A DNA stretch of 40,524 nt from NCBI GenBank assembly GCA_028873515.1, contig JAGWIG010000021.1, forward strand, positions 1 to 40,524, written 5' to 3'. Within the stretch, counting starts at the first letter, position 1. Each line of letters starts with the position of its first letter. The position numbers and the translations under genes are program-made. Source of the DNA: Pseudomonadota bacterium. Its GTDB lineage: Bacteria > Pseudomonadota > Gammaproteobacteria > Burkholderiales > REEB80. Below the pieces are notes generated by a model. The model had not been told where the DNA came from. It saw only the letters and a list, made by a program, of their open reading frames with translations, and ran no database searches. Below, piece by piece: positions 1 to 39,691 of the stretch.

Positions 1-279
1 AATCATGACAGCGAAACGGCAGCCATTGCCTGGGCTATTCAGCAGTCACTATACAGGCGCGGGTTCCTGGACGTTGAAGGTTGCCAGGTGCCAACTCATG
101 TTCTGGCCAGGAAGTTTCAAAAGGCCGAAATCACGCAGCAAGACATGCCAGATGAGATTCAATCTGACGAACCACTCATCCTGTCTGCAAAAACCTGCCC
201 CCAATGCCATGGCACGAACATCGTCCGTCTTGATGGGTGTGATACGTGCATGGATTGTGGCCATAGCAAATGTGCTTAA
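1..279 (+). CDS. nrdJ: C-terminal fragment of probable adenosylcobalamin-dependent (class II) ribonucleotide reductase
   Basis: The frame is open from the first base, so the gene starts to the left of the window and only the last 92 residues are seen. The tail ends in a zinc-ribbon-like set of cysteines (CPQC, then CDTC, CGHSKC), with the last cysteine one residue from the end. From family knowledge, class II (B12-dependent) ribonucleotide reductases end in such a four-cysteine module that re-reduces the active-site disulfide after each turnover. The preceding stretch (AIQQSLYRRGFLDVEGCQVP) fits a catalytic-core end but is not diagnostic. A different enzyme with a C-terminal zinc ribbon is possible. 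A GTG at 88 could start a 63-residue ORF, but the frame continues upstream of it. Confidence 0.6.
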   Translation, partial: NHDSETAAIAWAIQQSLYRRGFLDVEGCQVPTHVLARKFQKAEITQQDMPDEIQSDEPLILSAKTCPQCHGTNIVRLDGCDTCMDCGHSKCA

Positions 280-402
280 ACTATGTTTAGTGTTTGTATA
301 AGCCTGTTTAATGCCGTTCCTTTCAAGGCTGGCATCAAATAGGGTGAAAATTACAACAACAGAGACAAGGGTGTTTTTAGGCTTTTCCTGACAGCCAGGG
401 TT

Positions 403-430
403 AACCAGATCACGCTCTGGTTTTTTATTT
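403..430 (+). terminator. Rho-independent terminator after the left-edge gene
   Basis: A 7-bp stem (AACCAGA 403-409, TCTGGTT 416-422) with a 6-nt loop is followed by a T-rich run on the plus strand. It lies about 125 bp past the stop of the left-edge gene, in front of the convergent flavoprotein gene. The minus-strand side has no T-run, so it probably serves only plus-strand transcription. Confidence 0.65.
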
Positions 431-466
431 TATTTTCGTACTGTTAATCTTTATAGCTTCCATGCA

Positions 467-2023
467 TCACGTGCCCCCACCATGAAATTCCACTCCTGGC
501 TGATTTTCAGGTAAGTCAGCCACCATCAGTTCACGCTTTATCCTTTGCAGATCATCAAGCTCTGCACCATAAAGCATGTTTCTTGCATCCCCCAGGGCGG
601 ACTCAAGCAATGCGGCTGCCAATGCCATTGCATCCTGATCGAGTGTTCGGGAAAGAGCCTGTAAATCATAATTCAACTCTTTCGGCATCCTCACTTCCAG
701 AGCGGTTGTATATGCACGTGGCAAAGCGTCCGGTCTGATGGTACCTGGATGGGACTGCAATCTGCGCATCAGGGTAGCAATATGCGTAGCTAATGAAATA
801 CTCGGTTTAGCTGGTTTTAGCTTGATTTTATTAATGAAATAATTTTCAAAGCTTAACTTGGCAAGATGGACCCATTTACCATCCTTAAGATCGAGGATGT
901 TACGCAAAGGGATATGGGGCTCTGATAGAAGGGCAGCTCCGGATTCGGTCATATCGTTTATCCACTTCGCCCGTAATGGCACCGAATTAATCAGCCCTTC
1001 CCCGTTCATGGCTGCAACAATATTGCGCACGGCAACATCAACTTCATTTTGTATGGAATAAACTGAATCCGGAGCGCCGATGGGCAGGGGTGTCTGGGTT
1101 ACGGATGGATGCGCACCACATACTCCCACTGCAAAGATATTAGGGTACAGGGGGCTACGCAGATACTCATCGGTTTTAACGAAACCGCGTTCATCGGACA
1201 ATTCCGGATCTTCACGCAGAGCACGAATACCCCGGAACGCAGCCCAATAGGCAGAATAGGCAAAAGGAATTTCACTTGACTGGAGTTCCCTTCCCTGGTC
1301 ATCGTATAAGGTGACATGAACAACACCCGGCTCAATTTTCTGGGTTTTAACGTTCGTCAGGCAGGTAATATTACATTCAGCAAGCGCCTGTTCAAGCAAA
1401 TGACGGGTATCACTCTCAGCACCCAGCCCTAGATGTCCAACATAGGGCTCCGGAGTAAGGATAGTGATAGGAACCCGGTCACGAAGGTTGCGGCGACGAA
1501 GATCCGCATCCACAAGAAAAGCAAATTCATAAACGGGACCGAGAATAGATGAATTCTGTACGGCACCAATCACCAGTGCCCCTGGATTTTTCACAAACTG
1601 CAGATAATCATGGTAAGCCTTTAAGGCATCTTCAATATCCATCACCGAATGCACCACACCCCTGACAGGATCAAGCCCTTCGATTTCATCAAATGAGGCT
1701 TCCGGACCAGTTGCAAGAATCAGGTAATCATAAGCAAGCCTGCTTCCATCAACCAATTCAACCTGGTTATTCAAACCATCCACTTTTTTCAATGCCTTCG
1801 GGATAAAATCAATCTCGTGTTCACTCAGGTAAGGACCGATAGGAAACGCAATATCATTTCGATTACGCCACCCCATGGCGACCCATGGATTGGAAGGCAC
1901 GAAATGAAAATAATCCCTGTCCGATATCACAGTCACCTTATCCTTTGGGCTCAGACGGTTTCTCATGGCATAGGCAGCAGGTACTCCAGCAATCCCTGCG
2001 CCAACTATAACGACGTGTGTCAT
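467..2023 (-). CDS. SQR-like FAD/NAD(P)-binding oxidoreductase lacking the catalytic cysteines
   Basis: 518 residues. The N-terminus has a dinucleotide-binding motif (VVIVGAGIAGVPAA, residues 4-17), then YDYLILATGP (98-107) and NIFAVGVCGAHPS (295-307), the usual FAD-contacting elements of sulfide:quinone reductase and flavocytochrome c flavoproteins. The SQR hallmark GPxYEFAF is present (162-169). By my alignment from memory with Acidithiobacillus SQR, the three redox cysteines (128, 160, 356) fall on Met128, Ile160 and Trp354. It is therefore unlikely to oxidise sulfide by the standard mechanism. There is also an extra C-terminal region of about 90 residues. A strong ribosome-binding site (AAAGGAGA) precedes the ATG. 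It is last in the nar direction, 179 bp after the PpiC gene, so it may be read through from narG or have its own promoter. A quinone- or NAD(P)H-linked redox role with nitrate respiration is inference only. Confidence 0.7.
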   Translation of the reverse strand: MTHVVIVGAGIAGVPAAYAMRNRLSPKDKVTVISDRDYFHFVPSNPWVAMGWRNRNDIAFPIGPYLSEHEIDFIPKALKKVDGLNNQVELVDGSRLAYDYLILATGPEASFDEIEGLDPVRGVVHSVMDIEDALKAYHDYLQFVKNPGALVIGAVQNSSILGPVYEFAFLVDADLRRRNLRDRVPITILTPEPYVGHLGLGAESDTRHLLEQALAECNITCLTNVKTQKIEPGVVHVTLYDDQGRELQSSEIPFAYSAYWAAFRGIRALREDPELSDERGFVKTDEYLRSPLYPNIFAVGVCGAHPSVTQTPLPIGAPDSVYSIQNEVDVAVRNIVAAMNGEGLINSVPLRAKWINDMTESGAALLSEPHIPLRNILDLKDGKWVHLAKLSFENYFINKIKLKPAKPSISLATHIATLMRRLQSHPGTIRPDALPRAYTTALEVRMPKELNYDLQALSRTLDQDAMALAAALLESALGDARNMLYGAELDDLQRIKRELMVADLPENQPGVEFHGGGT

Positions 2024-2202
2024 GACGGTCTCCTTTGGAGTGACAGATTGCGATCATCATCAAACCCATACCAGATCCCGGCAACAGTATTGCAAAATGG
2101 TTGCCTTGTGACCTATTCTCACACATTTGAGGCTTGGTGAATTTTTCAGCGTCCCGCTTTTTGGTGATCCCTGAAATTTACAGACACCATGATATACCCC
2201 GT

Positions 2203-3003
2203 CTACTGCACAAGTGGCGTCTGCGCTCCATCAAGTTCAATTCCCTTAATATTGGCCTGCCCGACCAGTATCTTCAAATACTGCCTAAGGGCATGGACCC
2301 GAACCTGCTCTGTTAAATATTCGGAAAGCCGGTCCCTGATCACCTCCAGAGGCAATACATGACCCTGAACGCGACGCTCAACACGTACGATATGCAAACC
2401 GAAGCGGCTTTCAACCAATCTGGGTGCAATCTGCCCAGACTCAAGGCTGAAAATGACACGCTCAAACTCAGGCACAGTCTGCCCTTTTAACAGTTGCCCC
2501 AGGCTACCGCCAACTTCTGCCGAAGTACAGTTTGAGTAGGTGCGGGCCAGTTCAGGAAAAAGATCCGGTTGTGCCAGCACTTGCTGAAGGATTTCCTGCG
2601 CCTTTGCCCGAAGTATTTCCAGTGGTACGGCAGGTGTTACCTGGAACAGGATGTGGCTTGCTTCTACCAGATCTCCCACACGGAACTGTTCGATATTCTT
2701 TAGATAATAGGTTTCACACTCTTCATCAGTCATTACCGGGGTCTTGACTTCAAGTTCAATCAGGCGATCAATCAGTGCATCCTCAATTCTCGCTTCCGCC
2801 CCTCCGTCCATCGACACACCTTCCTGTAAAGGCTGCGAACCCGGCTCTGCCGCAAGCTTCTGGCGTGCTGCCTGCACCAGCACTTCCCGCATCACAAGCG
2901 CTTCGACTGCTGCTTTCAGTGGTATGGGTGCACTGGCGTGATGTGGCAATTCACGTTCCACAGCTTCATCAGTAATCTCAATATCATTAACGCTGATTCC
3001 CAT
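2203..3003 (-). CDS. Parvulin-type (PpiC) peptidyl-prolyl isomerase of the nar operon
   Basis: 266 residues. The parvulin rotamase domain covers about residues 113-212: EASHILFQV at its start, GGSLGQLLKGQTVPEFE in the middle, and SRFGLHIVRV at its end, all standard for the family. The N-terminal 110 residues are helical and SurA/NifM-like, with no signal peptide, so the protein is likely cytoplasmic. It lies 56 bp after narI with a good ribosome-binding site (GGGAGAAGAG). Parvulin genes often accompany nar and nif gene sets, where they are thought to help fold or mature the enzyme. A role in nitrate reductase assembly is inferred from position. Confidence 0.85.
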   Translation of the reverse strand: MGISVNDIEITDEAVERELPHHASAPIPLKAAVEALVMREVLVQAARQKLAAEPGSQPLQEGVSMDGGAEARIEDALIDRLIELEVKTPVMTDEECETYYLKNIEQFRVGDLVEASHILFQVTPAVPLEILRAKAQEILQQVLAQPDLFPELARTYSNCTSAEVGGSLGQLLKGQTVPEFERVIFSLESGQIAPRLVESRFGLHIVRVERRVQGHVLPLEVIRDRLSEYLTEQVRVHALRQYLKILVGQANIKGIELDGAQTPLVQ

Positions 3004-3059: not shown

Positions 3060-3752
3060 TTAGTCACGCTGCCTGACTATCTGGTAATTGCGTGTTAAAT
3101 ATCCTAACGCAGCGAAACCACTCCAGACATGAACCAGCCTGCTGAAGGGGAAGAGCAAAAACAGGGTCATGCCAAAAAACAGGTGGATTTTATATATCAA
3201 TGGCACTGCCACCAGAAAAACCGCGGCCCCTGGGCGAAACGTTGCAATATGCTGGGCCCAGTTTGCCAGCAGCAACATTTCGCTCCCGTCTGGATGTTGT
3301 GCTGAAAACAGGATGGTAGTCAAACCTAGCAACAAGGTAACAAGTATCCATACCAGGATAATGATGTCCATCGGTTTGCTGGTCGCACGGATTCGGGGTT
3401 CAGTCAAGCGCCGGTGAAGCAAAAGCGTAATACCGGTCAAGCAGAGCAGCCCCGCAACCCCCCCTGTTGTCATGGCCAGGAGTTGTTTAGCCTCGACGGT
3501 AACACCCATGGATTCGTAGAGCCAGTGAGGAGTGAGCAAACCCACAGCATGCCCGAAAAACAGGAACAGGATGCCTGAATGGAACAGGTTACTGCCCCAC
3601 CTTAACTGCCCCCGTTTCAATAGCTGGCTGGAATCACTCTTCCAGGTATATTGCTCACGGTCAAAACGAATCAGGCTTCCCAGGAAAAAGATGGCCAATG
3701 CCACATAAGGGTAGATCCCGAATAAAAGGTTATTCAAGTAAGTCATGGCCAT
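3060..3752 (-). CDS. narI: Respiratory nitrate reductase gamma subunit, cytochrome b
   Basis: 230 residues with about five membrane-spanning segments. NarI takes electrons from quinol in the inner membrane through two b-type hemes and passes them to NarH. The start YLNNLLFGIYPYVAL is typical. Two in-frame ATGs lie close together (3752 and 3746). A strong AAGGAG precedes both, and the second gives the conventional N-terminus MTYLNN. Numbered from the second ATG, histidines fall at 56, 66, 188 and 206, matching the four heme ligands of E. coli NarI (56, 66, 187, 205). It lies 8 bp after narJ. Confidence 0.95.
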   Translation of the reverse strand: MAMTYLNNLLFGIYPYVALAIFFLGSLIRFDREQYTWKSDSSQLLKRGQLRWGSNLFHSGILFLFFGHAVGLLTPHWLYESMGVTVEAKQLLAMTTGGVAGLLCLTGITLLLHRRLTEPRIRATSKPMDIIILVWILVTLLLGLTTILFSAQHPDGSEMLLLANWAQHIATFRPGAAVFLVAVPLIYKIHLFFGMTLFLLFPFSRLVHVWSGFAALGYLTRNYQIVRQRD

Positions 3753-3760
3753 TACTCTCC

Positions 3761-4444
3761 TTAAGAAGGGTTCAGGTTTTTTCCGCCTGAAACTGTAATC
3801 GGTTTACGGGATTCAGGCATGCGCACAGGCACTGTCTGCAGTTTAGGAACCATCAGGGGTTCGGTTCCATCCACTGACGGGCCGAAGTGGACAAGCGTCT
3901 CTTCCATCTCCCGCATTGGCACAGAGGGCAAGACTTGCGCTGCAATCGGCGATATCCCTTCCAGAACACTAAATACAGTGTGATATGGGCTGTTAGCAGC
4001 CTTCAGGTTACGCCCGATGAGAGCCAGCACATCAACCGCGTCACCCAGCATGCTAAGCGCATCCTGGTCCCGGAGCTGCGAGAGATACTCGAGAAATAAC
4101 GGCACATAGTCCGGCAGTTCATCAGCATGCATATCCAGTCCATGTTGCCGGTATTCTTCAACCAGGTTGACCATAGCCGGCCCACGGTCACGGGATTCTC
4201 CATGAATATGCTCGAACAGGTGCAGCGAATTCGAAGGATTGCGATCAAACGTGCCGACATAAACCTGTTCTGACTCAAGTCTTGGCTGTGCGCGCAAAGC
4301 CTTGAACAAATCAGCAAGCTTGGTCCTGGCCGCTCCATTCCGGTCCTTTTCCTCTTCCAGCATTGTTTCCATGAGAGCCAGTTCATCCATCCATTCATCC
4401 TGTGGATAGCAAAGCAGCAGTGAAAGTACTTTGAATGTTTTCAC
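3761..4444 (-). CDS. narJ: Nitrate reductase molybdenum cofactor assembly chaperone
   Basis: 227 residues of the TorD/NarJ chaperone family. It has the all-helical opening MKTFKVLSLLLCYPQDEW and the central HLFEHIHGESRDRGPAM motif characteristic of NarJ (roughly residues 76-92). NarJ binds apo-NarG and allows insertion of the molybdenum cofactor and the N-terminal Fe-S cluster before membrane docking. The start is GTG, preceded by GGAAGGAG at good spacing, only 2 bp after the narH stop, so translation is probably coupled. The proline-rich C-terminal 30 residues are typical of the less conserved tail. Confidence 0.95.
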   Translation of the reverse strand: MKTFKVLSLLLCYPQDEWMDELALMETMLEEEKDRNGAARTKLADLFKALRAQPRLESEQVYVGTFDRNPSNSLHLFEHIHGESRDRGPAMVNLVEEYRQHGLDMHADELPDYVPLFLEYLSQLRDQDALSMLGDAVDVLALIGRNLKAANSPYHTVFSVLEGISPIAAQVLPSVPMREMEETLVHFGPSVDGTEPLMVPKLQTVPVRMPESRKPITVSGGKNLNPS

Positions 4445-4446
4445 AA

Positions 4447-6000
4447 TCAGGCTCCTTCCACTGATTTTTTTCGCGATTTTGGCATAGACACAAAAATGGC
4501 TGAACCCTTTTTCTTGGTGCCAAACAGGCTGGCATCAGACACACCGTCTGAACATGCATTACCAAACGAAAACCCGCAACTGCCTTTCTCATTGAATGCA
4601 TCGGCCACTTCTTCACGGTGTCCGCTTGGTATGACGAACCGATCTTCATAATTGGCAATGGCCATATAACGATACATTTCCTCAACCTGGGCTGCTGTCA
4701 AACCTACCTGATCCAGCACTTCGGTATTGGCTATTCCTTCAACCGACTGGCCACGCATATAGGCACGCATAGCCAGCATGCGATCCAGCGCAGTAATGAT
4801 GGGGGCTTCCTTACCGGCAGTCAGCAGGTTAGCCAGGTATTTAACAGGAATGCGCAGTGAACGAGTATCCGGGATAATACCGTTCATGCCCATTGCGCCG
4901 CTTTCAGCCACAGACTGGATCGGCGAAAGTGGAGGGACATACCAGACCATAGGCAAGGTCCGGTATTCTGGATGCAGGGGAAATGCGATTTTCCAGTCGA
5001 TGGCCATCTTATAGACCGGGGACAGGCGTGCGGATTCCAGCCAGGCTTCGGGGATGCCATCAAGACGGGCCTGCTCGATAACATCAGGGTCATCAGGGTC
5101 AAGAAACAGGCCCAATTGTGCCTCATACAGGTCCTGTTCATCACTGACGCTGGCCGCCTGCTTAATCTGGTCTGCATCATAGAGCAACACACCAAGATAG
5201 CGAATCCGGCCAACACAGGTTTCCGAGCAGACAGTCGGTTGGCCCGCCTCAATACGGGGGTAGCAGAAGATACATTTCTCAGCCTTGCCAGATTTCCAGT
5301 TGTAGTAAATCTTCTTGTAGGGGCAACCGCTGATGCACATGCGCCAGCCACGGCATTTGTCCTGATCCACCAGGACGATACCATCTTCTTCCCGCTTATA
5401 GATGGAACCAGATGGACAGGATGCAACGCAGGTTGGATTCAGGCAATGTTCACACAGTCTTGGCAGGTACATCATGAAGGTGTTTTCAAAAGTCGAATAT
5501 ATTTCCTTCTGCACCTCATCGAAACATTTGTCACGGCTGCGGGAAGAGAACTCGCCACCCAGGTCATCCTCCCAGTTTGGTCCCCATTCAATCTTGTCCA
5601 TTTTTTTGCCGGTAATCACCGATACAGGACGAGCAGTCGGTGGGGTCTCTGACAGTTTCGCATCCTGCAAATGCTCATAATCAAAGGTAAAGGGTTCATA
5701 GTAGTCGTCAATCTCGGGCAGGTTCGGATTACCGAATATATTCGCCAGGATGCGCCATCTGGCGCCTTGGCGCGGCTCAATCCGACCCTTCCGGTTACGC
5801 TTCCAGCCGCCATTCCAGATATCCTGGTTTTCCCACTGCTTCGGATAACCGATACCGGGCTTGGTTTCCACGTTATTAAACCAGGCATATTCCATGCCAT
5901 CCCGGGAAGTCCACACGTTTTTACACGTGACAGAACAGGTATGGCAGCCAATACATTTATCCAGATTCAGCACCATGGCTATTTGGGCACGGATTTTCAT
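4447..6000 (-). CDS. narH: Respiratory nitrate reductase beta subunit, iron-sulfur protein
   Basis: 517 residues, close to E. coli NarH (512). It carries the electron wire between NarI hemes and NarG. The first ferredoxin motif has Cys16, 19, 22 and 26 (CIGCHTCSVTC). A second set is CEHCLNPTCVASCP. The third group has CRGWRMCISGC, where a tryptophan replaces one cysteine, the NarH signature that makes this cluster [3Fe-4S]. The last group is CIFC with CSETC. Its ATG overlaps the narG stop by 4 bp (ATGA), so the two are translationally coupled. Confidence 0.97.
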   Translation of the reverse strand: MKIRAQIAMVLNLDKCIGCHTCSVTCKNVWTSRDGMEYAWFNNVETKPGIGYPKQWENQDIWNGGWKRNRKGRIEPRQGARWRILANIFGNPNLPEIDDYYEPFTFDYEHLQDAKLSETPPTARPVSVITGKKMDKIEWGPNWEDDLGGEFSSRSRDKCFDEVQKEIYSTFENTFMMYLPRLCEHCLNPTCVASCPSGSIYKREEDGIVLVDQDKCRGWRMCISGCPYKKIYYNWKSGKAEKCIFCYPRIEAGQPTVCSETCVGRIRYLGVLLYDADQIKQAASVSDEQDLYEAQLGLFLDPDDPDVIEQARLDGIPEAWLESARLSPVYKMAIDWKIAFPLHPEYRTLPMVWYVPPLSPIQSVAESGAMGMNGIIPDTRSLRIPVKYLANLLTAGKEAPIITALDRMLAMRAYMRGQSVEGIANTEVLDQVGLTAAQVEEMYRYMAIANYEDRFVIPSGHREEVADAFNEKGSCGFSFGNACSDGVSDASLFGTKKKGSAIFVSMPKSRKKSVEGA

Positions 6001-9000
6001 ATTGTGGCCTCCTTGCTTTCATCCAGCGGGTTTTCCATCCAGTTCACGTTTTTCATTTTTCGCAAAATCACGTATTCATCCCGGTTAGAACCCACAGTGC
6101 CGTAATAATTGAAGCCATAGGAGAGTTGCGCATATCCGCCAATCATGTGAGTCGGCTTAATCACCGTACGCGTCACGCTGTTATGGATACCTCCTCGATA
6201 TCCACTCGTTTCCGCACCCGGCACATTGATGATTTTTTCCTGGGCATGGTACATCAGCGCCATGCCCCGGGGCACCCGCTGGCTGACTACCGCCCGTGCC
6301 GTGAGCGCACCATTCACGTTATAGACTTCGATCCAGTCGTTATCCACAATTCCGGCTTCCCTGGCTTCCGGTTCGGAAATCCAGACATGAGGTCCGCCAC
6401 GGGATAACGTCAGCATTCGCAGGTTATCTGTATACGTACTATGAATACCCCATTTCTGATGCGGGGTGATCCAGTTCAGAATAAGCTGCCTGTTGCCATT
6501 ACCCATCTTTTCGAGCACCGGCTTGACAGTCTTGGTATCAATAGGAGGTTTGTATACGCATAATCCTTCACCGAAATCCAGCATCCATTTATGATCCTGA
6601 TAGAACTGCTGCCGACCGGTAAGGGTACGCCAGGGAATCAATTCATGAACATTGGTATAACACGCGTTGTAACTCACATGCTCCGATTCCAGGCCACTCC
6701 AGGTAGGTGAAGAAATAATCTTCCGGGGCTGTGCCTGAATATCGCGAAAACGGATCTTGTCATCTTCCCTTGGTAAAGCCAGATGGGTATGATCCCGCCC
6801 AGTAATCCGGGACAACGCTTCCCACGCCTTGACCGCCACCTGCCCATTGGTTTCAGGTGCAAGCATCAGGATCATTTCACAGGCATCGATAGCAGAGTCA
6901 AGGCGTGGCAAGCCCTTGCTGATCCCTTCTTCCTGTTCGGTATGATTTAACTCGGCAAGTTGCTGCACTTCGTTTTCCGTATTCCAGGATATGCCCTTGC
7001 CACCATTACCAACTTTAACCAGAAGCGGTCCCACCGAGGTGAATTTCTTGTAGATATCCGCATAATCACGAGTGACAACTGTCATGTTGGGCATGGTCTT
7101 GCCTGGGATAGCCTCGCATTCACCCTTTTTCCAGTCCTTGACCCCGATTGCCTGTCCCAGTTCCCCGGGTGTATCGTGCATCATGGGAGTCAACACCAGA
7201 TCGTTCTGTATGCCAAGGTGGATGGCAGCCAGTTCACTGAACTTCCTTGCAATGGTTTTATATATTTCCCAGTCGGACCTGCTTTGCCACAATGGCTGAA
7301 CTGCCTCGGATAATGGATGAATGAAAGGATGCATATCCGAAGTATTCAAATCGTCCTTCTCATACCATGTGGCGGTCGGGAGTACAATATCGGAATACAG
7401 GCAGGTAGTAGACATGCGAAAATCCAGGGTCACCAGCAAGTCAAGTTTTCCTTCGGCTCCCTTGTCATGCCAGACTACCTCTTTGGGTCTGGCTTCGCCC
7501 AATTTCCCCAGATCAAGACCAAACACTGCATTCTGCGTACCCAGCAGATACTTCAAAAAGTACTCATGGCCCTTGCCGCTGGATCCTAGAATATTTGAGC
7601 GCCACACAAACATGTTGCGCGGAAAATTCCTTGGATTGTCCGGATCTTCACAGGACATCTTCAAGATGCCGTTCTTAAGCTGCTCCGTAGCATATTTGAC
7701 TGGATCCATACCCGCAGCCTGCGCGGCACCAGCAACATCAATCGGGTTGGTTTGCAACTGGGGTGCTGATGGCAGCCACCCCATGCGTTCAGATTTCACA
7801 TTAAAATCAATCAGGCTATAATCTGCTGCGCTGGCATCCCCGGTGGGTGACAGGATTTCATGAGTATCGAGTTTCTCATGGCGCCACTGACTGGTATGTG
7901 CATAAAAAAATGAGGTGCCATTCATCTGCCGGGATGGACGATGCCAATCGAGTGCAAAGGCCAGGGGGGTCCAGCCAGTCTGTGGACGAAGTTTTTCCTG
8001 TCCGACATAGTGCGCCCAGCCTCCACCGGACTGCCCGACACACCCGCACATCATCAGCATGTTGATGATGCCGCGGTAAATCATGTCCATGTTATACCAG
8101 TGATTCAGCCCTGCACCCACAATTACCATGGATTTTCCATGTGTCTTATTCGCATTGTCAGCAAATTCACGGGCTACAGTAATAATATCAGCGCGTTTAA
8201 CATGCGTATGTCTTTCTCCCCAGGCCGGGGTATAGGGCGTTTTGTCATCATCATAGCTTGAAGCAACATTGCCCCCTCCCAACCCACGATCCAGACTATA
8301 ATTGGCAAGCATCAGGTCATAAACAGTCGCTACCCTGATTTCGGCTTCCTGAATCCGGAGGAACTTGATCGGTACATTGCGCACTTGCACATCACTCGCG
8401 TCAGTACCACCAAAATAAGGAAAACCAATGCCGGCTACGCCATCGCTGATACCCATAAGGCTAAGCCTTGGCTTGATCTCCTGACCCGAACTGGCATCAT
8501 GCATTTCGAGATTCCACATACCGCTTTGGCCCCAGCGGAACCCAATTGATCCATTTGGCGCAACCAGATAGCCAGTGTTTTCATCAATCACAATGGTTTT
8601 CCAGTCGGGGTTATTCTCCTGTCCAAGCCTGCCATCCAGGTCAGAAGCACGAAGAAACCTGTCAGGCACCAGGATACCGTCATGCTCTTTGAGCATCACC
8701 AGCATCGGCATATCGGTAAACTGGCGGCAATAGCCGTCGAAATACTCACTTTTTTTGTCCAGATGAAACTCTTTAAGGATGACATGCCCCATAGCCATGG
8801 CCAGAGCTGCGTCTGTTCCCTGGGTAGGAGCCAGCCAGATATCGCCAAATTTCACCATCTCGCCATAGTCGCTGGAAATCGCAACTGTTTTTGTACCCTT
8901 ATATCGTACCTCGGTATAAAAATGGGCGTCGGGAGTACGCGTCTGCGGAATATTGGAACCCCAGACCATAAGATAGGTCGAATTGTACCAATCGGCAGAC

Positions 9001-9767
9001 TCAGGCACATCCGTCTGTTCACCCCATACCTGAGGCGATGCCGGTGGCAGATCACAGTACCAGTCATAAAACGACAGGGGGACGCCGCCAATAAGCGACA
9101 GGTAGCGTGAACCCGCTGCATAGCTCACCATAGACATCGCAGGAATCGGTGAAAACCCGACAATACGATCAGGGCCATAATCCTTAATGGTCATGACATT
9201 GGCGGCAGCAATCATTTCTGTAACCTCATCCCACCCGGCCCGCACAAATCCTCCCTGGCCCCGTACAGACTTATATTTTTTTGCAGTCTCCGGATTCTGG
9301 CTGACGGCCCGCCAGGCTTCCACCGGCCCCATGGTTTGACGCGCCTCACGCCACAACTCCACCAGACGGCCCCGAACCAGGGGATACTTGACGCGCTGTG
9401 CGCTATACACATACCAGGAATAACTTGCACCACGGGGGCAGCCACGCGGCTCATGATTAGGCAAATCCGGGCGGGTTCGGGGATAATCAGTCTGCTGGGT
9501 TTCCCAGGTGATAAGCCCATTCTTGACATAAATTTTCCAGCTGCATGAACCGGTACAGTTCACCCCATGTGTCGATCGGACAATCTTGTCCTGCTGCCAG
9601 CGGCTACGGTAGGCATTTTCCCAAGATCGATCTTCATGGGTTAGCACACCATGGTTACCGGCAAATTTTTCCTGATTTTTTTTAAAGAACATCAATCGAT
9701 CCAGAAAGTGGCTCATTCCTGCTCCAGTAAATACGGGTATCTTGATAAAGGATTGGTCATTAGACAT
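5997..9767 (-). CDS. narG: Respiratory nitrate reductase alpha subunit, molybdopterin catalytic subunit
   Basis: 1256 residues (E. coli NarG has 1247). NarG reduces nitrate to nitrite on the cytoplasmic face using bis-MGD molybdenum. The N-terminal cluster motif is HGVNCTGSC with a distal RGCPRGASYSW. It uses a histidine as the first ligand, as in other NarG proteins. The segment YCDLPPASPQVWGEQTDVPE holds the conserved Asp that coordinates molybdenum. There is no twin-arginine signal, which fits cytoplasmic orientation (nNar-type). It is the first gene of narGHJI-ppiC and starts 52 bp from a perfect FNR/ANR site. No strong Shine-Dalgarno is visible in front of the ATG. Confidence 0.97.
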   Translation of the reverse strand: MSNDQSFIKIPVFTGAGMSHFLDRLMFFKKNQEKFAGNHGVLTHEDRSWENAYRSRWQQDKIVRSTHGVNCTGSCSWKIYVKNGLITWETQQTDYPRTRPDLPNHEPRGCPRGASYSWYVYSAQRVKYPLVRGRLVELWREARQTMGPVEAWRAVSQNPETAKKYKSVRGQGGFVRAGWDEVTEMIAAANVMTIKDYGPDRIVGFSPIPAMSMVSYAAGSRYLSLIGGVPLSFYDWYCDLPPASPQVWGEQTDVPESADWYNSTYLMVWGSNIPQTRTPDAHFYTEVRYKGTKTVAISSDYGEMVKFGDIWLAPTQGTDAALAMAMGHVILKEFHLDKKSEYFDGYCRQFTDMPMLVMLKEHDGILVPDRFLRASDLDGRLGQENNPDWKTIVIDENTGYLVAPNGSIGFRWGQSGMWNLEMHDASSGQEIKPRLSLMGISDGVAGIGFPYFGGTDASDVQVRNVPIKFLRIQEAEIRVATVYDLMLANYSLDRGLGGGNVASSYDDDKTPYTPAWGERHTHVKRADIITVAREFADNANKTHGKSMVIVGAGLNHWYNMDMIYRGIINMLMMCGCVGQSGGGWAHYVGQEKLRPQTGWTPLAFALDWHRPSRQMNGTSFFYAHTSQWRHEKLDTHEILSPTGDASAADYSLIDFNVKSERMGWLPSAPQLQTNPIDVAGAAQAAGMDPVKYATEQLKNGILKMSCEDPDNPRNFPRNMFVWRSNILGSSGKGHEYFLKYLLGTQNAVFGLDLGKLGEARPKEVVWHDKGAEGKLDLLVTLDFRMSTTCLYSDIVLPTATWYEKDDLNTSDMHPFIHPLSEAVQPLWQSRSDWEIYKTIARKFSELAAIHLGIQNDLVLTPMMHDTPGELGQAIGVKDWKKGECEAIPGKTMPNMTVVTRDYADIYKKFTSVGPLLVKVGNGGKGISWNTENEVQQLAELNHTEQEEGISKGLPRLDSAIDACEMILMLAPETNGQVAVKAWEALSRITGRDHTHLALPREDDKIRFRDIQAQPRKIISSPTWSGLESEHVSYNACYTNVHELIPWRTLTGRQQFYQDHKWMLDFGEGLCVYKPPIDTKTVKPVLEKMGNGNRQLILNWITPHQKWGIHSTYTDNLRMLTLSRGGPHVWISEPEAREAGIVDNDWIEVYNVNGALTARAVVSQRVPRGMALMYHAQEKIINVPGAETSGYRGGIHNSVTRTVIKPTHMIGGYAQLSYGFNYYGTVGSNRDEYVILRKMKNVNWMENPLDESKEATI

Positions 9768-9783
9768 ATCGTTATACGATTTA

Positions 9784-9832
9784 TTTTGCCAATGCTAGCA
9801 TTGCCAGCCAAATCTGTTTTGATATATATCAA
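9784..9832 (-). promoter_or_regulatory. FNR/ANR-dependent narG promoter
   Basis: A perfect FNR/ANR box TTGAT-ATAT-ATCAA lies at 9819-9832. On the minus strand a -10-like hexamer TAGCAT (9792-9797, 4 of 6 matches to TATAAT) has its centre 31 bp downstream of the box centre. That is the class II arrangement, with the box at about -41.5, and predicts transcription starting near 9784 with a leader of about 17 nt. Oxygen-responsive activation of narGHJI is expected. No sure NarL heptamers were picked out by eye. Confidence 0.8.
9790..9803. repeat. 14-bp perfect palindrome over the narG -10 region
   Basis: The sequence CAATGCTAGCATTG is a perfect inverted repeat with no spacer. It coincides with the proposed -10 element and is separate from the FNR/ANR box. 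It may be an operator for a second regulator (a nitrate/nitrite or metal regulator is conceivable) or may be chance in an AT-rich promoter. Confidence 0.6.
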
Positions 9833-10219
9833 GAATTATTAATCTTCTTGAAAAACATAAAAAAATCTTTGATATTCTTCTAATTAACAGGAATATGCAG
9901 CAAAATAAACGTAATATCCTGCAGTAGAATCCTGTAAACCCGGATCTAGACTCTTTCAGATCAGGCCAGGACCAACCAATCAGGAATGACGTGTTATCCA
10001 GGGCAATACATCCGGATCAGCCTATGCAGGGCAGACAAGAACTGCCTGTCATGTCAAACCACAAATCCGGATAGAACTGGCCCTTTCAGATGGATCACAT
10101 CCGGTCAGTTTCACGATAAAGCCGGGACATGCCAATCTTCAGGGCAAGAAAAGCAAGATAGGCAAAGGGGAGCTATTCTGTTCATGTGCTCCCTGTCTCA
10201 ATCATGAAGAATATCCACC
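9833..10219. other. Intergenic region upstream of the narG promoter
   Basis: I find no credible gene here. A weak hairpin (GGGAGC 10168-10173, GCTCCC 10188-10193) lies about 27 bp past the stop of the TDT transporter gene on the minus strand. It is followed by only a short T-run, so it is at best a poor terminator, and some read-through from the transporter into narG is possible. The rest shows no repeats I can support. Confidence 0.4.
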
Positions 10220-11299
10220 TCACTTCATCTGGGCACGGAACCGGCCCGTTAGCCCAAGATGGGCTGCAATGTTGCCAATAAACCCGATAAAGGTGCCCAG
10301 CCAAGCAAATAGGGCCACATAAACAAAATATCTGGGGATAACAAGCAAAAAGGGTAAATTCAAAACCCGGGCGAGCTCGTAAGTGCAAACGGTATACATG
10401 CCAAGAGGGAACACGCCCCCCCAGTACAGGGGATCGTAAGTAAGGGAAAAACGCCGATAAACATAACGCCAGAATCCGAGGATAACAAGCATCGGGATCC
10501 ACCATGTCGCCGTCGCCCAGAATAAGAGGGTGAATCCCTTGATAAACGGTATCAGGTCTTTCATAAAGGCAATCTGGCCGGAATTTTCAACTAAAACCGT
10601 TCCTGCCAGGGTGGAAATAGCCATCGCACCCATGTTAATCCAGTAAGGTGGCGTCAGATCAGAAGGTTCCAGCTGAAAAAACATATACCGGTAAAAAATC
10701 AGCGAAATAATCCATATATAGAGCATGCCACCACCTAACCACATCACCAGCGAAAAAAATACCATCATGGTCTGGTAATGAGATGAGAAAACAGCAAGCC
10801 TTCCGCTTAGGATAGCCACAGACTGGGCAGCCACCACCGTCACCAGCCAGCCACCATTAATTCCCGCACCTAAGGAGGGCTTGATTTGCTTGATGGTAAG
10901 ATTGGTAAAAATCGCGTAGGTTAACAATATCCATAAGGCCAGTGAGCCATACCACATGTAATAGGCCAAATTTACATTACCCAGGATAACCAGGAACTGG
11001 GATCCTAGAATGCCTGTGGCTGCTATCATGGTGAAAAAACCGACCCCCCGGCTATGGTCAGTAAAATCTGAAATCAATGCATGTGGGCAATAAACCAGTC
11101 TTATCAAGGTCAGCAGCCACAATGCCCCATAGAAAATCAGGTTTAACAGGAACAAACCACTGGCAATAACACGAAACAGAAACAGTTGGGAAGCCATGGA
11201 AACAATACCGGTTGCCATGACCATTGCAAAACAGGCAGGATGTAGCTTGCCGATATAATAATCTGCCAATCCAGTCATTCTCCCTTTCTCGGTAAACAT
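10220..11299 (-). CDS. TDT-family transporter (tellurite-resistance/C4-dicarboxylate, TehA/SLAC1-like)
   Basis: 359 residues with about ten hydrophobic spans and short loops. The opening [16 protein letters not shown] is the hallmark of the TDT family, whose members include TehA, Mae1-type malate permeases, sulfite exporters and the plant anion channel SLAC1. All move small anions across the inner membrane. The substrate cannot be read from sequence. Nitrate, nitrite, sulfite and a dicarboxylate are all conceivable. The ATG has an AGAGGAAG ribosome-binding site; a second ATG at 11278 is less well placed. It stands as a single gene just upstream of narG on the same strand, and its promoter has a perfect FNR/ANR palindrome, so anaerobic expression is likely. 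Confidence 0.85.
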
Positions 11300-11387
11300 A
11301 AAAACTTCCTCTTCATATCTGTTTTAAAGATGTTTTTTTAATGAATTAAATTCAATGAAGTTTTCCACCATGCGTCTCAATCTATCC

Positions 11388-11438
11388 GAATCTGGATTCT
11401 AGTCGACAAAAAAGATATTTGGTTGATTTAAATCAACC
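11388..11438 (-). promoter_or_regulatory. FNR/ANR-dependent promoter of the TDT transporter
   Basis: GGTTGATTTAAATCAACC (11421-11438) is an 18-bp perfect palindrome that contains a perfect FNR/ANR box TTGAT-TTAA-ATCAA (11423-11436). On the minus strand the hexamer TAGAAT (11396-11401, 5 of 6 matches to TATAAT) is centred 31 bp downstream of the box centre, exactly as at narG. The predicted start is near 11388, leaving a leader of about 89 nt before the gene. Confidence 0.8.
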
Positions 11439-11753
11439 ATTATTCCTAAACCTATTTTTTTATAAGCCCACCAATAAAACCATATATTATGAATATTAAA
11501 TACATGTTACTAATGGATTTTGCTTCGAAACAGACTGAAATTACACTACACTTTTATTCTAAAAAAACCTGATAACAGGATTGGAACACAAACCGGGTCT
11601 CTGGCTTAAAAGATTTACGGCCTCAGTCAGGCTTATTCGATCCAGCCTGTCCATCGAGGTTTTCTAGTGAAGGGCACCGGACAGGATTTGAACGGGATAA
11701 ATATCCGAATGCTGGCTTTCTGCTTGAGACTCTTAGTAGAACAATTATTTAAT
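11439..11753. other. AT-rich intergenic region beyond the transporter promoter
   Basis: No credible gene. A degenerate palindrome at 11489-11505 matches an NsrR-type pattern (ATGYATTTNAAATRCAT) except at two positions. It would sit about 100 bp upstream of the predicted transporter start. The stretch around 11680-11700 has a tRNA T-loop-like string (GTTCAAATCC on the minus strand), but its stem does not pair. Confidence 0.3.
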
Positions 11754-12488
11754 CTAGACAAGCTGAGCTCGCACACAACGATGTTCCAGCTCTACCAGGT
11801 GGGGTAAAAGTTCAGAATTTTTTAAGACGTGAAAAATAAAACGCGGAACATCAACATCAGTTGTTTGTGCCATGAAAGGCTCTCCCCAGAAGCTAAGAAG
11901 TGCTTCCGTTCCCCCGCTCAACTGGCTATCGGCAAGAATGAAAGAAACAGACTTGCTCAATCCGCACCAGCGAGGCTCCCTGACCTTGGCAAAACCTGTG
12001 CAGCCAGCCAATTTTGGCTGTATAACCCCTAACCACAAATCCTTCTGGCTTTCATCAAGGACAAACTGAATTGAAGTCACCATCGGATTATCCACAGCAG
12101 GTCGAAGCAGAGCCTCAAACAGCGGCTTGGGCTCATACATGGACAGACAAAGATTAAACCAGATTGTCTCCCCGCTCATATGCCGGCAAAACTGTTCATT
12201 CACAGATCGCAGTTGACGGGGCCCAATCAGAATCACATCCGGATGTTTGAAAGCAGACGCAATACTGCTAACCGCATCTGCCGTGCGATTAACCTGTTCA
12301 GCAGTTGTTTCATTGTCTTTCTTGTGACGCATGAAGTTAATAAACAGGAGCGCCATAAGTACAAGCAAAATAGGCAAAATGACATGATCATTCACCAGAC
12401 GCAAAAGATCGAGGACAATCGCCACGACAGCCGCCACAATTCCTGCAATCGCATCCCACTCATAGCTAAAAAATCGTTTTGTTTTCAT
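11754..12488 (-). CDS. Unrecognised membrane-anchored protein
   Basis: 244 residues; I do not recognise the family. Two hydrophobic segments lie near the N-terminus (about residues 12-29 and 35-53). They are followed by a basic stretch (RHKKD) and then a soluble domain of about 185 residues, so it is probably an inner-membrane protein with a cytoplasmic domain. The soluble part has alternating hydrophobic strands (DVILIGPRQL, IQFVLDES, SVSFILADSQLSGG), which suggests an alpha/beta fold. No catalytic motif could be picked out with confidence. The ribosome-binding site is weak. It stands alone between the transporter and the first hemerythrin on the same strand. A link to the nitrate/NO genes is suggested only by position. 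Confidence 0.7.
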   Translation of the reverse strand: MKTKRFFSYEWDAIAGIVAAVVAIVLDLLRLVNDHVILPILLVLMALLFINFMRHKKDNETTAEQVNRTADAVSSIASAFKHPDVILIGPRQLRSVNEQFCRHMSGETIWFNLCLSMYEPKPLFEALLRPAVDNPMVTSIQFVLDESQKDLWLGVIQPKLAGCTGFAKVREPRWCGLSKSVSFILADSQLSGGTEALLSFWGEPFMAQTTDVDVPRFIFHVLKNSELLPHLVELEHRCVRAQLV

Positions 12489-12674
12489 CTAATGCCCAAT
12501 GACAGGATTAAGGGGTGCCAATGTGGATCGTTAATACTAAAAAACGTATAAAAAAAGATGTTATCGTGAGCAGGTCGCCCTAGCGTTACTGAATAACTGG
12601 AACACATCTGACAAGCCCTGAAGAATTGCAGCAAACCCTGGAATCTCAAATTCCGGCACAAAAGGCCTGATCAA

Positions 12675-13205
12675 TCAATCCATGATCCGTCTGGCAACCA
12701 TGGCTGCTCCGAGTTCCCGCAGCTGCTCTTCAGACAGGTACTTTCTGGCAAATGGAAAAATCCGTGATTCCTCCTGGATAAGGTGATGGTCATATTTCCC
12801 GCATAGGCGGCTCACTTCTGCAGATTTCAGTATCATGCCCTTCCCTTCACTGATCTTCTGAAGTTTATCCCGCATTTCCATCCAGAGTCTGTCCAGATCC
12901 CTGTGATCTTTCATCAGCAGGTCAATTTCAAGCGTTATGCGTATATCCAGTCTTTTTTCTGTCTCTGCCAGCATGGGGAAAAGATTCACTTCTTCATCCG
13001 CATGATGATCCCGACCCGAGGTATCAAAATAATGCATCACCCTTCCTGCCGCTTGCCGTGCCTCATCATCAGAACCAAAAAATTCAAGGTGAACCACGAG
13101 TTTTTCCAGAATAGAGCAGTACGCCCTGATACGTTCATGGCAGGCTTCCAGCATCTCAATGGGCTCATTGAAAGAAGGAGCTGGCGCTAAAAAGAAATCA
13201 TTCAT
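12675..13205 (-). CDS. Hemerythrin-like HHE-domain protein
   Basis: 176 residues forming the expected four helices with all di-iron ligand positions filled: His23 in helix 1, DHHADEE (His67/68, Glu71/72) in helix 2, His101 in KDHRDLDRLW, and HHLIQEE (His140/141, Glu145) in helix 4. Hemerythrin-domain proteins bind oxygen or NO at a non-heme di-iron centre, or help repair Fe-S clusters (RIC/YtfE group). There is no signal peptide, so it is cytoplasmic. It lies 229 bp after a second hemerythrin gene on the same strand and may share its transcript. No separate operator was seen in front of it. Confidence 0.88.
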   Translation of the reverse strand: MNDFFLAPAPSFNEPIEMLEACHERIRAYCSILEKLVVHLEFFGSDDEARQAAGRVMHYFDTSGRDHHADEEVNLFPMLAETEKRLDIRITLEIDLLMKDHRDLDRLWMEMRDKLQKISEGKGMILKSAEVSRLCGKYDHHLIQEESRIFPFARKYLSEEQLRELGAAMVARRIMD

Positions 13206-13305
13206 GATGACACTTTACCTTAGAATTTTCCGTCCAGCTTGAAATATGGATCAACTGTACGCAAAAAAGCTTCAAATCCTGACCCTTTTTCCTGATCCTG
13301 TTAAA

Positions 13306-13325
13306 AGGGGTAACAAAAAACCCCT
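13306..13325 (-). terminator. Weak terminator-like hairpin between the hemerythrin genes
   Basis: Arms AGGGGT (13306-13311) and ACCCCT (13320-13325) surround an 8-nt loop. On the minus strand only a short T-run follows. It lies about 110 bp past the stop of the upstream hemerythrin and could partly separate the two genes. Confidence 0.3.
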
Positions 13326-13434
13326 ACGTCCTGCAGAACTACGAGACAGGCAACAGCCTGGTCCAATGCAGTTTAAAGCCCTGCAAGTACTCGATGCTTC
13401 AATCATATATCCCGGAATCCATCCCTACCAGAGA

Positions 13435-13884
13435 TTAGGCACTCAATCCAACTTTTTCCCTGATTTCCCTAAGAAACCGGTTCCTTTTGATCCCTGGCAT
13501 CCGGTCCAACACAGGATAAATTTCCATGGCCTCCCTTGCGTTATGCAAATCCAGCAATTTGGTCAATGAATCAGCCAGATCGACAAATTCGGCGTGCTCA
13601 TCTGCATCAGCGAATATTTTAAGCTGCTTCAGCAGATACCCGATTTGCCGGTGCTCAAAACACATGGAGAAAACCGGATCTGCAACCCACTTTCTATTTT
13701 CTTCACATACTGGAAAAAGAATCTCCTCTTCCGCTTCAATATGCAAATGCAGAGCCCGGATCATGACAGCAAGAATTGCCCTGGCCTCATTCCAGGAATC
13801 CATTGCAACTACTTTCTGCACTTTGCTCCAGAGATTAAGGATATACTGCTGATCCATACACAGATATTCATAAATAGAAGTCAT
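13435..13884 (-). CDS. Hemerythrin-like protein, NsrR-controlled, missing the helix-1 histidine
   Basis: 149 residues from the ATG at 13884. I choose this start because GGAG lies 9 bp upstream and the protein then begins MTSIYEYL, the usual opening of short hemerythrins. An ATG at 13956 in the same frame would add 24 residues with no family resemblance. Ligand positions seen are His48-x3-Glu52 in helix 2, His78 in helix 3 (FEHRQI) and His114-x3-Glu118 in helix 4 (LHNAREAMEIYP). In helix 1, where DH is usual, the sequence reads MDQQ, so Gln12 replaces the expected histidine. About 170 bp upstream is a consensus-quality NsrR operator over a promoter, pointing to induction by nitric oxide. Likely roles are NO/O2 binding or Fe-S repair in the cytoplasm. 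Confidence 0.85.
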   Translation of the reverse strand: MTSIYEYLCMDQQYILNLWSKVQKVVAMDSWNEARAILAVMIRALHLHIEAEEEILFPVCEENRKWVADPVFSMCFEHRQIGYLLKQLKIFADADEHAEFVDLADSLTKLLDLHNAREAMEIYPVLDRMPGIKRNRFLREIREKVGLSA

Positions 13885-14052
13885 GATAGCTTGCTCCACT
13901 CCATTACATTCCAGTAAACAGGAAATGCCGCCAACATCTTTTTTAAACCCAGCCATACGATTCCAGCACTTTTTTTAAATTTCATCAATAAATCAAATGC
14001 CTACGAAAAGAATTTTTCATCAGCACAAATAATTCAGCTGAAATCACCCCAT

Positions 14053-14079
14053 TTAAGATGTATTTAAAATACATCTTAA
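14053..14079. promoter_or_regulatory. NsrR-type nitric-oxide operator
   Basis: This is a perfect inverted repeat: arms TTAAGATGTATTT (14053-14065) and its exact reverse complement (14067-14079) around a single A. The core follows the published proteobacterial NsrR pattern (AAGATGYATTT-N-AAATRCATCTT) at every position. NsrR is an Fe-S repressor that leaves DNA when it senses NO. The site overlaps the -10 element of a minus-strand promoter reading to the hemerythrin at 13435-13884. No nsrR gene is in the window. Confidence 0.85.
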
Positions 14080-14101
14080 TGATTATAGTCGCTGATGTCA
14101 A
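14073..14101 (-). promoter_or_regulatory. Promoter of the NsrR-controlled hemerythrin
   Basis: A perfect -35 TTGACA (14096-14101, minus strand) is followed after 17 bp by TAAGAT (14073-14078), which lies inside the NsrR operator, a layout suited to repression. A perfect TATAAT also lies between them (14082-14087), but it has no -35 at proper spacing, so which -10 is used is uncertain. Either way the operator covers the -10 or the start region. Confidence 0.6.
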
Positions 14102-14334
14102 AATCCCTGTTTTTTTAGGCACTTTATAAGCCGGTCAATCCAGGGGGAAAAGGCAGCCGGCATCGTGATTCCTGTCTTTTCCTCGCGATTTCCGACAGCC
14201 GCACCCCAAATCACCAGACAGCCGACTGCAGGAATGCATATGATGCCTGCACAACACCATTTCCTTCTTCATAAAGAAAAGAGGCGCACAAACTGCTAAA
14301 CCAGCTAAGTTTTATTTACGGAAACGATAAATAA
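14102..14334. other. Intergenic region between the divergent hemerythrin and oxc genes
   Basis: I see no credible gene and no clear repeat in this stretch. It separates the minus-strand promoter with the NsrR site from the plus-strand control region of oxc. Confidence 0.4.
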
Positions 14335-14377
14335 TTGACCAAGGTCAAGGAAGTATGTCAGGTACGGAACTGATAAT
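14335..14377 (+). promoter_or_regulatory. Possible Crp/Fnr-family promoter of oxc
   Basis: TTGACC-AA-GGTCAA (14335-14348) is an inverted repeat with 6-bp arms and the 14-bp size of Crp/Fnr-family sites. It has C/G where FNR sites have T/A, resembling NNR/DNR-type boxes. GATAAT (14372-14377, 5 of 6 to the -10 consensus) is centred 33 bp downstream. A start near 14383 would leave a leader of about 180 nt before oxc. The regulator is unknown. Confidence 0.45.
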
Positions 14378-14561
14378 TGCAATTGGATGTAACCTAGACC
14401 CGGCAGGGGTCAGGGATGGGTATTTCCGGGACAGAACCATGCAGAACCCGTCAGAAGGAATCCAGCTAAACCATTCCGACTGCACATAGTCTAGCATGCT
14501 CCCCGATTGATTTTCATTAATTATTAATTGATAGATTGCCAAATTGAACAGGAGAGTCAGC

Positions 14562-39130: not shown

Positions 39131-39691
39131 TCAATGCGACACTCCTTCCCGGGCCAGAACCTTGACAAAGGTCAAGGCCATGATGCGCAGATCAAACAGT
39201 ACCGATTGACGTTCAAGATATTCAACGTCCAGGGCAACCTTTGTTGAAATGGGCAATTCATCCCGTCCATGTATCTGGGCCCAGCCTGTTAGGCCCGGCA
39301 CCAGCCGATGCACTCCAGTCCGAGTCCGCAATTCAACCAGATCATGCTGGTTAAAGAGGGCCGGGCGAGGCCCGACAAAACTCATGTCTCCGACCAGGAT
39401 GCTCCATAACTGGGGAAGCTCATCCAGGCTGGCCTTGCGCAGGAATGCCCCGACCGGGGTCAGGTATTTTCCGGGATTATCCAGCAGGTGGGTTGCAAGG
39501 GGTGGGGTGCCCACTTTCATGGTCCGGAATTTAGGCATCCTGAATATCACATTGTCACGCCCCACACGATCTGACCAGTAAAGGACGGGTCCAGCTGACG
39601 TCACTCTGATGATAAGGGCGATACCCAGAATAGGTATAGCGAGGACGGCCAGCAGCACCAGAGCAGCCATGATATCCAGAAACCGCTTCAT
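39131..39691 (-). CDS. Initiating sugar-phosphate transferase (PglC/WcaJ family)
   Basis: 186 residues from the ATG at 39691, which overlaps the upstream stop (ATGA) and has AAGGAA at good spacing; the frame is open to 39772 but without family features. It has one re-entrant membrane segment at the start (MKRFLDIMAALVLLAVLAIP), then FRMPKFRTMKVG, the catalytic Asp-Glu of KASLDELPQLWSIL, GDMSFVGPRP and PGLTGWAQI. These are the hallmarks of short polyprenol-phosphate sugar-1-phosphate transferases. It loads the first sugar of a surface glycan on undecaprenyl phosphate. Confidence 0.93.
   Translation of the reverse strand: MKRFLDIMAALVLLAVLAIPILGIALIIRVTSAGPVLYWSDRVGRDNVIFRMPKFRTMKVGTPPLATHLLDNPGKYLTPVGAFLRKASLDELPQLWSILVGDMSFVGPRPALFNQHDLVELRTRTGVHRLVPGLTGWAQIHGRDELPISTKVALDVEYLERQSVLFDLRIMALTFVKVLAREGVSH

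Follow-up and report, generated by a model that had tools for sequence, protein, structure and literature searches.

The window, by which we mean the whole stretch of 40,524 bases that was analysed, carries two hemerythrin-domain genes on its minus strand, Hr1 (13435–13884, 149 aa; PF01814) and Hr2 (12675–13205, 176 aa; PF01814), which are likely to be co-transcribed across the 230-bp gap between them. An alternative ATG at 13956 would extend Hr1 to 173 aa; the Hr1 paralogues and most relatives, whose starts were chosen by script, begin at the residue matching 13884. The respiratory nitrate reductase operon narGHJI (3060–9767, minus strand) lies 3.7 kb beyond Hr1, with Hr2, a 244-aa open reading frame (11754–12488) without a Pfam or NCBIfam match and a SLAC1-type gene in between. 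An FNR/DNR-like box of its own, TTGATATATATCAA at 9819–9832, stands ∼52 bp before narG in a region without a match to the NsrR pattern, and is separate from the hemerythrin NsrR site described below. A second FNR/DNR-like box, TTGATTTAAATCAA at 11423–11436, is found ∼120 bp before the SLAC1/TehA-type gene (10220–11299), where it overlaps a terminator-like stem (11420–11439) and hence may be a terminator instead. Together the two boxes suggest an anaerobic control that would be separate from NsrR. The window also contains two TTGAC-N4-GTCAA palindromes (14335–14348 and 39162–39175), one of them ∼215 bp before an oxalyl-CoA decarboxylase gene.

The decarboxylase gene is on the plus strand, diverges from Hr1 and starts near 14562; between the two lies a perfect inverted repeat at 14053–14079, a predicted NsrR operator with no strand of its own. 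The two 13-nt arms (14053–14065 and 14067–14079) are 100% complementary and separated by a 1-nt gap. The published NsrR consensus is gATGyAT-N5-ATrCATc (PMC1274295), and the 23-bp core of the repeat, 14055–14077, reads AAGATGTATTTAAAATACATCTT, with no mismatch to the NsrR 11-1-11 pattern AAGATGYATTTNAAATRCATCTT and its ATGyAT-N5-ATrCAT core. This core is the sole match at ≤3 mismatches in the 40,524-base window, and dinucleotide shuffles of the window gave any such match in 0 of 100 cases, so that the perfect 13-bp-arm repeat fitting the NsrR pattern, as claimed in the original prediction, is confirmed. A reading of the palindrome as a terminator or hairpin was rejected, since both flanking genes point away from it and it therefore cannot end their transcripts. 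Moreover, a 1-nt loop is unsuited to an RNA hairpin of full length. The window site is identical to the ytfE site of E. coli CFT073, AAGATGCATTTAAAATGCATCTT, except at the Y/R pair, where C/T and G/A are exchanged symmetrically; the CFT073 site was positive by ChIP-seq and is listed first, with the top score, among the palindromic CFT073 sites in the accessible part of Table 4 (PMC5320621).

The repeat overlaps the promoter of its presumed target. A −35 hexamer TTGACA (14096–14101, minus strand), assigned from the promoter scan and its recurrence at genus genes, is followed after 17 nt by a −10 hexamer TAAGAT (14073–14078, minus strand) that falls inside an operator arm. With 10/12 matches, this minus-strand TTGACA-N17-TAAGAT arrangement is the best of four promoter-like sites in 9700–14550, a region whose shuffles average 8.5 such sites, and the promoter scan alone is hence no proof. 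The window promoter is credible because the other Hr1 genes of the genus repeat its layout, and the claimed overlap with a promoter reading into 13435–13884 is upheld. Transcription would be expected to start near 14066. The likely Hr1 start codon and the beginning of the operator are 193 bp apart, giving a long leader, and this distance counts against reading the site as a switch.

Four Hr1-type genes were found in the genus, three in the window's genome (in the window and on contigs C123 and C77) and one in the congener, the one further species of the genus available for comparison. The spacer is 17 nt at all four. The −35 elements are TTGACA in the window and the congener, TTGACC on C123 and TTGCAT, three mismatches from TTGACA, on C77, and the −10 element within the left operator arm reads TAAGAT in the three genes of the window's genome and TAATAT in the congener. 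The operators themselves show 0 (window), 2 (C123) and 3 (congener) mismatches, and the third paralogue, on C77, has a weaker palindrome of its own with 5. Simulated upstream regions contained an equal or better site in 2 of 2000 cases for C77 and in 0 of 2000 for each of the others. In a motif-free comparison of the 300-bp upstream regions, the operator was the most similar 29-mer in 6/6 pairs and exceeded the maximum of 20 shuffles in four of them; the window–C77 pair equalled the shuffle maximum and the C123–C77 pair fell below it. The left operator arms of the congener start with AATATG, resembling a variant of the Neisseria NsrR site (PMC1274295). The palindrome thus stands before the paralogues and before the hemerythrin of the congener, and its absence upstream of orthologous hemerythrins, named beforehand as grounds for dropping the proposal, was not observed within the genus.

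A pattern scan of the window's genome (3.4 Mb, ≤3 mismatches) returned five palindromic places versus one for the reversed control. Four of the five have, 71–193 bp downstream of where they begin, either a hemerythrin gene or one of the copies of a single GGDEF-EAL gene. Besides the window site, the place at C123:12551 precedes a second Hr1-Hr2 pair, with nsrR 11.6 kb away. The operator at C229:110–132 (L048) precedes an 885-aa PAS-GAF-GGDEF-EAL gene (187–2844) in which the GGDEF and EAL motifs are present, the PAS assignment resting on a match slightly below cut-off. At C77:403–425 (L047) the operator precedes a truncated copy of this gene (480–770), the two being alike over the first ∼400 bp, and the truncated copy lies next to moaA and the island with nsrR. 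The fifth place, C112:1708–1730 (L049), is likewise a near-perfect palindrome of the NsrR type, but no target gene is apparent for it, so that not all matches need be functional; it lies in an A/T-rich stretch, ∼1 kb from an IS1595-type transposase gene. This orphan site and the reversed-control match are what could be said for the palindrome at Hr1 being a chance or non-regulatory feature, such as a hairpin or terminator; against this, the shuffles yielded nothing and the site recurs with fixed promoter geometry, and we regard such an origin as scarcely credible.

Weaker sites were sought with a profile (R1) trained on six sites in both orientations, which match it by construction, so that only the other places are new. 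One, at G001:C34:44389 in the congener (E 0.016), stands before a multicopper-oxidase/cupredoxin protein that appears to be NirK. A second, at C251:4829 in the window's genome (E 0.051; L069 1501–1528), is a palindrome AACATGTAT-N5-ATACATGTT between a divergent PAS-GGDEF gene (1–1141, minus strand) and a CZB chemoreceptor gene (1678–2790, plus strand). The third, at C123:16403 (L046:2405; E 0.376), precedes a COX1-like/DUF2249 pair and has the same arm variant as the site on C251.

The genes around the second hemerythrin pair point to nitric oxide. On C123 the order is Hr1, Hr2, another hemerythrin, NnrS, SirB, a COX1-like gene (21.4 bits, under the cut-off of 34.8), a DUF2249 protein, a NorB-type reductase, a further hemerythrin, an oxidoreductase and nsrR, with the contig ending in moaA. 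C123 and C77 share 149 bp where the former ends and the latter starts, and the C77 sites therefore very probably continue the same island. In the congener, the Hr1-Hr2 pair is followed by NnrS (59% identical to that of C123), SirB, a third hemerythrin, an oxidoreductase and nsrR, the last 4.8 kb from the operator, and is preceded by a response regulator, a histidine kinase, an SbmA-type ABC transporter and a DUF218 gene. The left flank of the window pair has this same gene order with the oxalyl-CoA decarboxylase gene interposed (80% identity to the congener for the ABC transporter, 65% for DUF218). The arrangement is consistent with one ancestral locus, whose left flank would survive at the window pair and whose right flank would survive at the C123 pair. 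Hence, in the claim that Hr1 is tied to NO sensing beside the nitrate-reduction genes, the link to NO stands, by way of the nsrR-NnrS-NorB island on C123, whereas the link to nitrate comes down to neighbourhood. Likewise, the search for other NsrR targets yielded the NorB-type reductase but no Hmp: no PF00042 globin of the Hmp type was found in either genus genome by a search that was positive in E. coli and B. subtilis.

We examined which regulator might recognise the operator. The window's genome encodes three Rrf2 proteins, of which one is an IscR and one a SUF-type regulator, each over its own cut-off, and the third, at C123:24129–24596, has NsrR as its best NCBIfam match. Its score against NF008240 (137 bits; 135.3 for the congener orthologue, which is 75% identical) lies below the curated cut-off of 182. 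The closest solved relative is NsrR of Streptomyces coelicolor (5n07), with which the three Cys residues align; the cluster ligands there are Cys93, Cys99 and Cys105, according to the accessible part of PMC9338935. In a tree of 11 rows, with implausibly long inner branches and an unsettled order inside the NsrR group, the C123 regulator groups with the congener orthologue, E. coli NsrR (b4178) and four site-linked regulators (support 96/95), and the IscR and SUF regulators fall outside. Taken together, the best match, the tree and the cysteines indicate with high, though not complete, confidence that C123:24129–24596 is NsrR, and the absence of an nsrR gene from the genome, which would have spoken against the proposal, can be set aside given this probable nsrR. 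The palindromes before nsrR itself, which might hint at autoregulation, are weak in both genus genomes (E 0.456 and 4.65) and not significant alone.

With three Rrf2 proteins in the genome, the palindrome might instead be bound by IscR or the SUF-type regulator and report Fe-S or iron status rather than NO. The candidate NsrR is under the curated cut-off and also scores 127.5 bits against RirA, and a putative NsrR of Streptomyces venezuelae turned out to represent a novel type of Rrf2 protein, as stated in the accessible part of PMC5015018. However, both genus genomes have an operator of this kind on the same contig as nsrR, at a distance of 11.6 and 4.8 kb, the genes of the island are NO genes, such a site directly adjoins nsrR in four of the five other-genus genomes with a near-perfect site, and the site-linked regulators group with E. 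coli NsrR and not with the IscR or SUF regulator. Binding by another Rrf2 protein is thus improbable, and NsrR remains the preferred regulator.

Outside the genus, near-perfect sites are rare, occurring at ≤1 mismatch in 3/298 non-genus genomes, with the exact 21-bp core pattern present in 2/148. The near-perfect sites of all five other-genus genomes have nsrR (four) or a NorB-type gene (one) as a neighbour, and the pattern therefore marks NsrR targets in this order. Further neighbours of these sites are an MFS transporter, an FeS-assembly protein, a hemerythrin and, twice, a truncated globin. In one genome of another genus (G105, L058), a hemerythrin gene (454–900) and nsrR (887–1354) are convergent with a 14-bp overlap, and a near-perfect NsrR site is adjacent.

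Comparison of the site in related genomes gave a divided result: the congener has it, but hemerythrin loci of other genera do not. In 28 such loci, the 400 bp ahead of the matched region contained no site, the fewest mismatches being 7; these loci come from a set of 298 non-genus genomes, 80 of which gave a match, and at 24–31% identity they need not be orthologues of Hr1. Order-wide sharing of the operator by hemerythrin relatives was not borne out in these loci, and the wiring of operator to hemerythrin is therefore seen only in this genus. Within it, the repeat at 14053–14079 can be taken, with high probability, as a genuine NsrR operator that sits on the promoter of a hemerythrin gene.

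Hr1, scanned as its longer form (13435–13956), scores 51.8 bits against PF01814 (cut-off 25.3) and hence belongs to the HHE-domain family. PF01814 gave 10 matches in the window's genome, read as nine genes, and four in the congener; the Hr2 of the window is 46% identical to that of C123 and 50% to that of the congener, and the Hr1-Hr2 order is common to all three. An assignment of Hr1 as a RIC/YtfE protein was rejected, its 173-aa form reaching 34.1 bits against TIGR03652 versus a cut-off of 204.7, and neither of the two genus genomes has a TIGR03652 match over that cut-off. The YtfE ligands H84, H129, E133, H160, H204 and E208 are named in the accessible part of PMC9268430. When Hr1 was mapped onto these positions in the present analysis, H48, E52, H78, H114 and E118 were found to be kept, and the helix-A ligand His was replaced by Gln, leaving the His/carboxylate ligand set incomplete. 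The Gln occurs in the window and C77 copies, with His in 23/25 rows of an alignment of the four proteins from the genus with 21 of the 28 loci from other genera (L020, L022, L032 and L041 were omitted for internal stops, and L024, L029 and L037 as near copies). The predicted model of Hr1 is a confident helical bundle (pLDDT 85.4). Foldseek gave it no PDB match at E ≤0.001, and the list returned mixes hemerythrin-like entries with many generic bundles, adding little on the identity of Hr1.

Judged from sequence, it is very likely that NsrR represses the Hr1-Hr2 promoter from the palindrome and that NO lifts this repression. A bound NsrR dimer would cover the −10 element and the start region, and with the −10 element lying within an operator arm, bound repressor would exclude polymerase. 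Without NO, Fe-S-loaded NsrR would block RNA polymerase; NO, for example from nitrate and nitrite respiration, would destroy the cluster, NsrR would leave and the hemerythrin pair would be expressed. Since neither a RIC over cut-off nor a PF00042 globin was found, the Hr proteins would most likely do YtfE-like work, that is, handle NO, nitrite or iron at a non-haem iron site.

The hemerythrins might, on the other hand, be under NsrR and yet serve low-oxygen supply or storage of O2 rather than NO handling. This is suggested by bhr-11 of Methylomonas denitrificans, a bacteriohemerythrin gene close to nitrate reductase genes, whose mRNA rises under hypoxia in nitrate medium, as described in the accessible part of PMC12607906; that system differs in that ‘NsrR’ has no occurrence in the main text of the paper. 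Against an oxygen role stand the altered ligand set of Hr1 and the presence of the same operator type at the pair on C123, which lies upstream of NnrS and shares its contig with nsrR and the NorB-type reductase. We hold it to be rather unlikely and retain NO handling as the preferred function.

A wider reading, which we put forward tentatively as possible but short of an even chance, is that the NsrR regulon of this genus has been rebuilt without Hmp and RIC, with hemerythrins, some lacking the helix-A ligand, as the NO-induced effectors. The operator would also drive the PAS-GAF-GGDEF-EAL gene and perhaps the divergent GGDEF and CZB genes, coupling NO to c-di-GMP and taxis. If so, the operator before the GGDEF-EAL gene would let NsrR connect NO directly with c-di-GMP. 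The tie between the two runs through H-NOX in the accessible part of PMC5588039, where NsrR is predicted on hmp and ytfE. Within the open-licence literature as far as it was accessible, we found no paper linking NsrR to such hemerythrins or to a GGDEF-EAL gene, and no title that concerned a GGDEF gene controlled by NsrR. If the operator at Hr1 acts as predicted, a direct NO-sensing repressor would govern hemerythrins outside the RIC family, a large group of mostly unassigned function, and paralogues sharing one operator-promoter design raise the question of whether a small hemerythrin with incomplete ligands can perform YtfE-like NO or nitrite handling.

Among known systems, Burkholderia pseudomallei has an NsrR homologue (BPSL2376) and a hemerythrin HHE protein (BPSL2377) whose consecutive numbers suggest adjacency. 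In the accessible part of PMC8191878 the former is named as RegAB-regulated and the latter stands in a supplementary figure legend; unlike here, an operator is not discussed in that text. The beta-proteobacterial NsrR regulon (Rodionov 2005, PMC1274295) shares with the present one the consensus, the members nnrS and norB and, in some species, NirK. It differs in that hmp is its most conserved member, whereas here there is no PF00042 globin and hemerythrins carry the site. Section 9 of that paper mentions no hemerythrin besides dnrN (ytfE), and the paper applies the word ‘hemerythrin’ solely to members of predicted regulons of HcpR, a different NO/nitrite-linked regulator, which is a precedent for hemerythrins in NO/nitrite-linked regulons. 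Another is ytfE of E. coli, where, in the accessible part of PMC5320621, an NsrR operator of the same 11-1-11 type controls the gene of a hemerythrin-fold di-iron protein; rics are under NsrR repression in several species (accessible part of PMC9268430). Hr1 differs from YtfE in its length of 149 aa, its score under the RIC cut-off, its pairing with Hr2 and the Gln at the first His-ligand position. The NsrR regulon as such is known; what appears to be new, going by the accessible open-licence literature, is its probable extension to hemerythrins outside the RIC family, whose promoters repeat one design, and an operator before a GGDEF-EAL gene.
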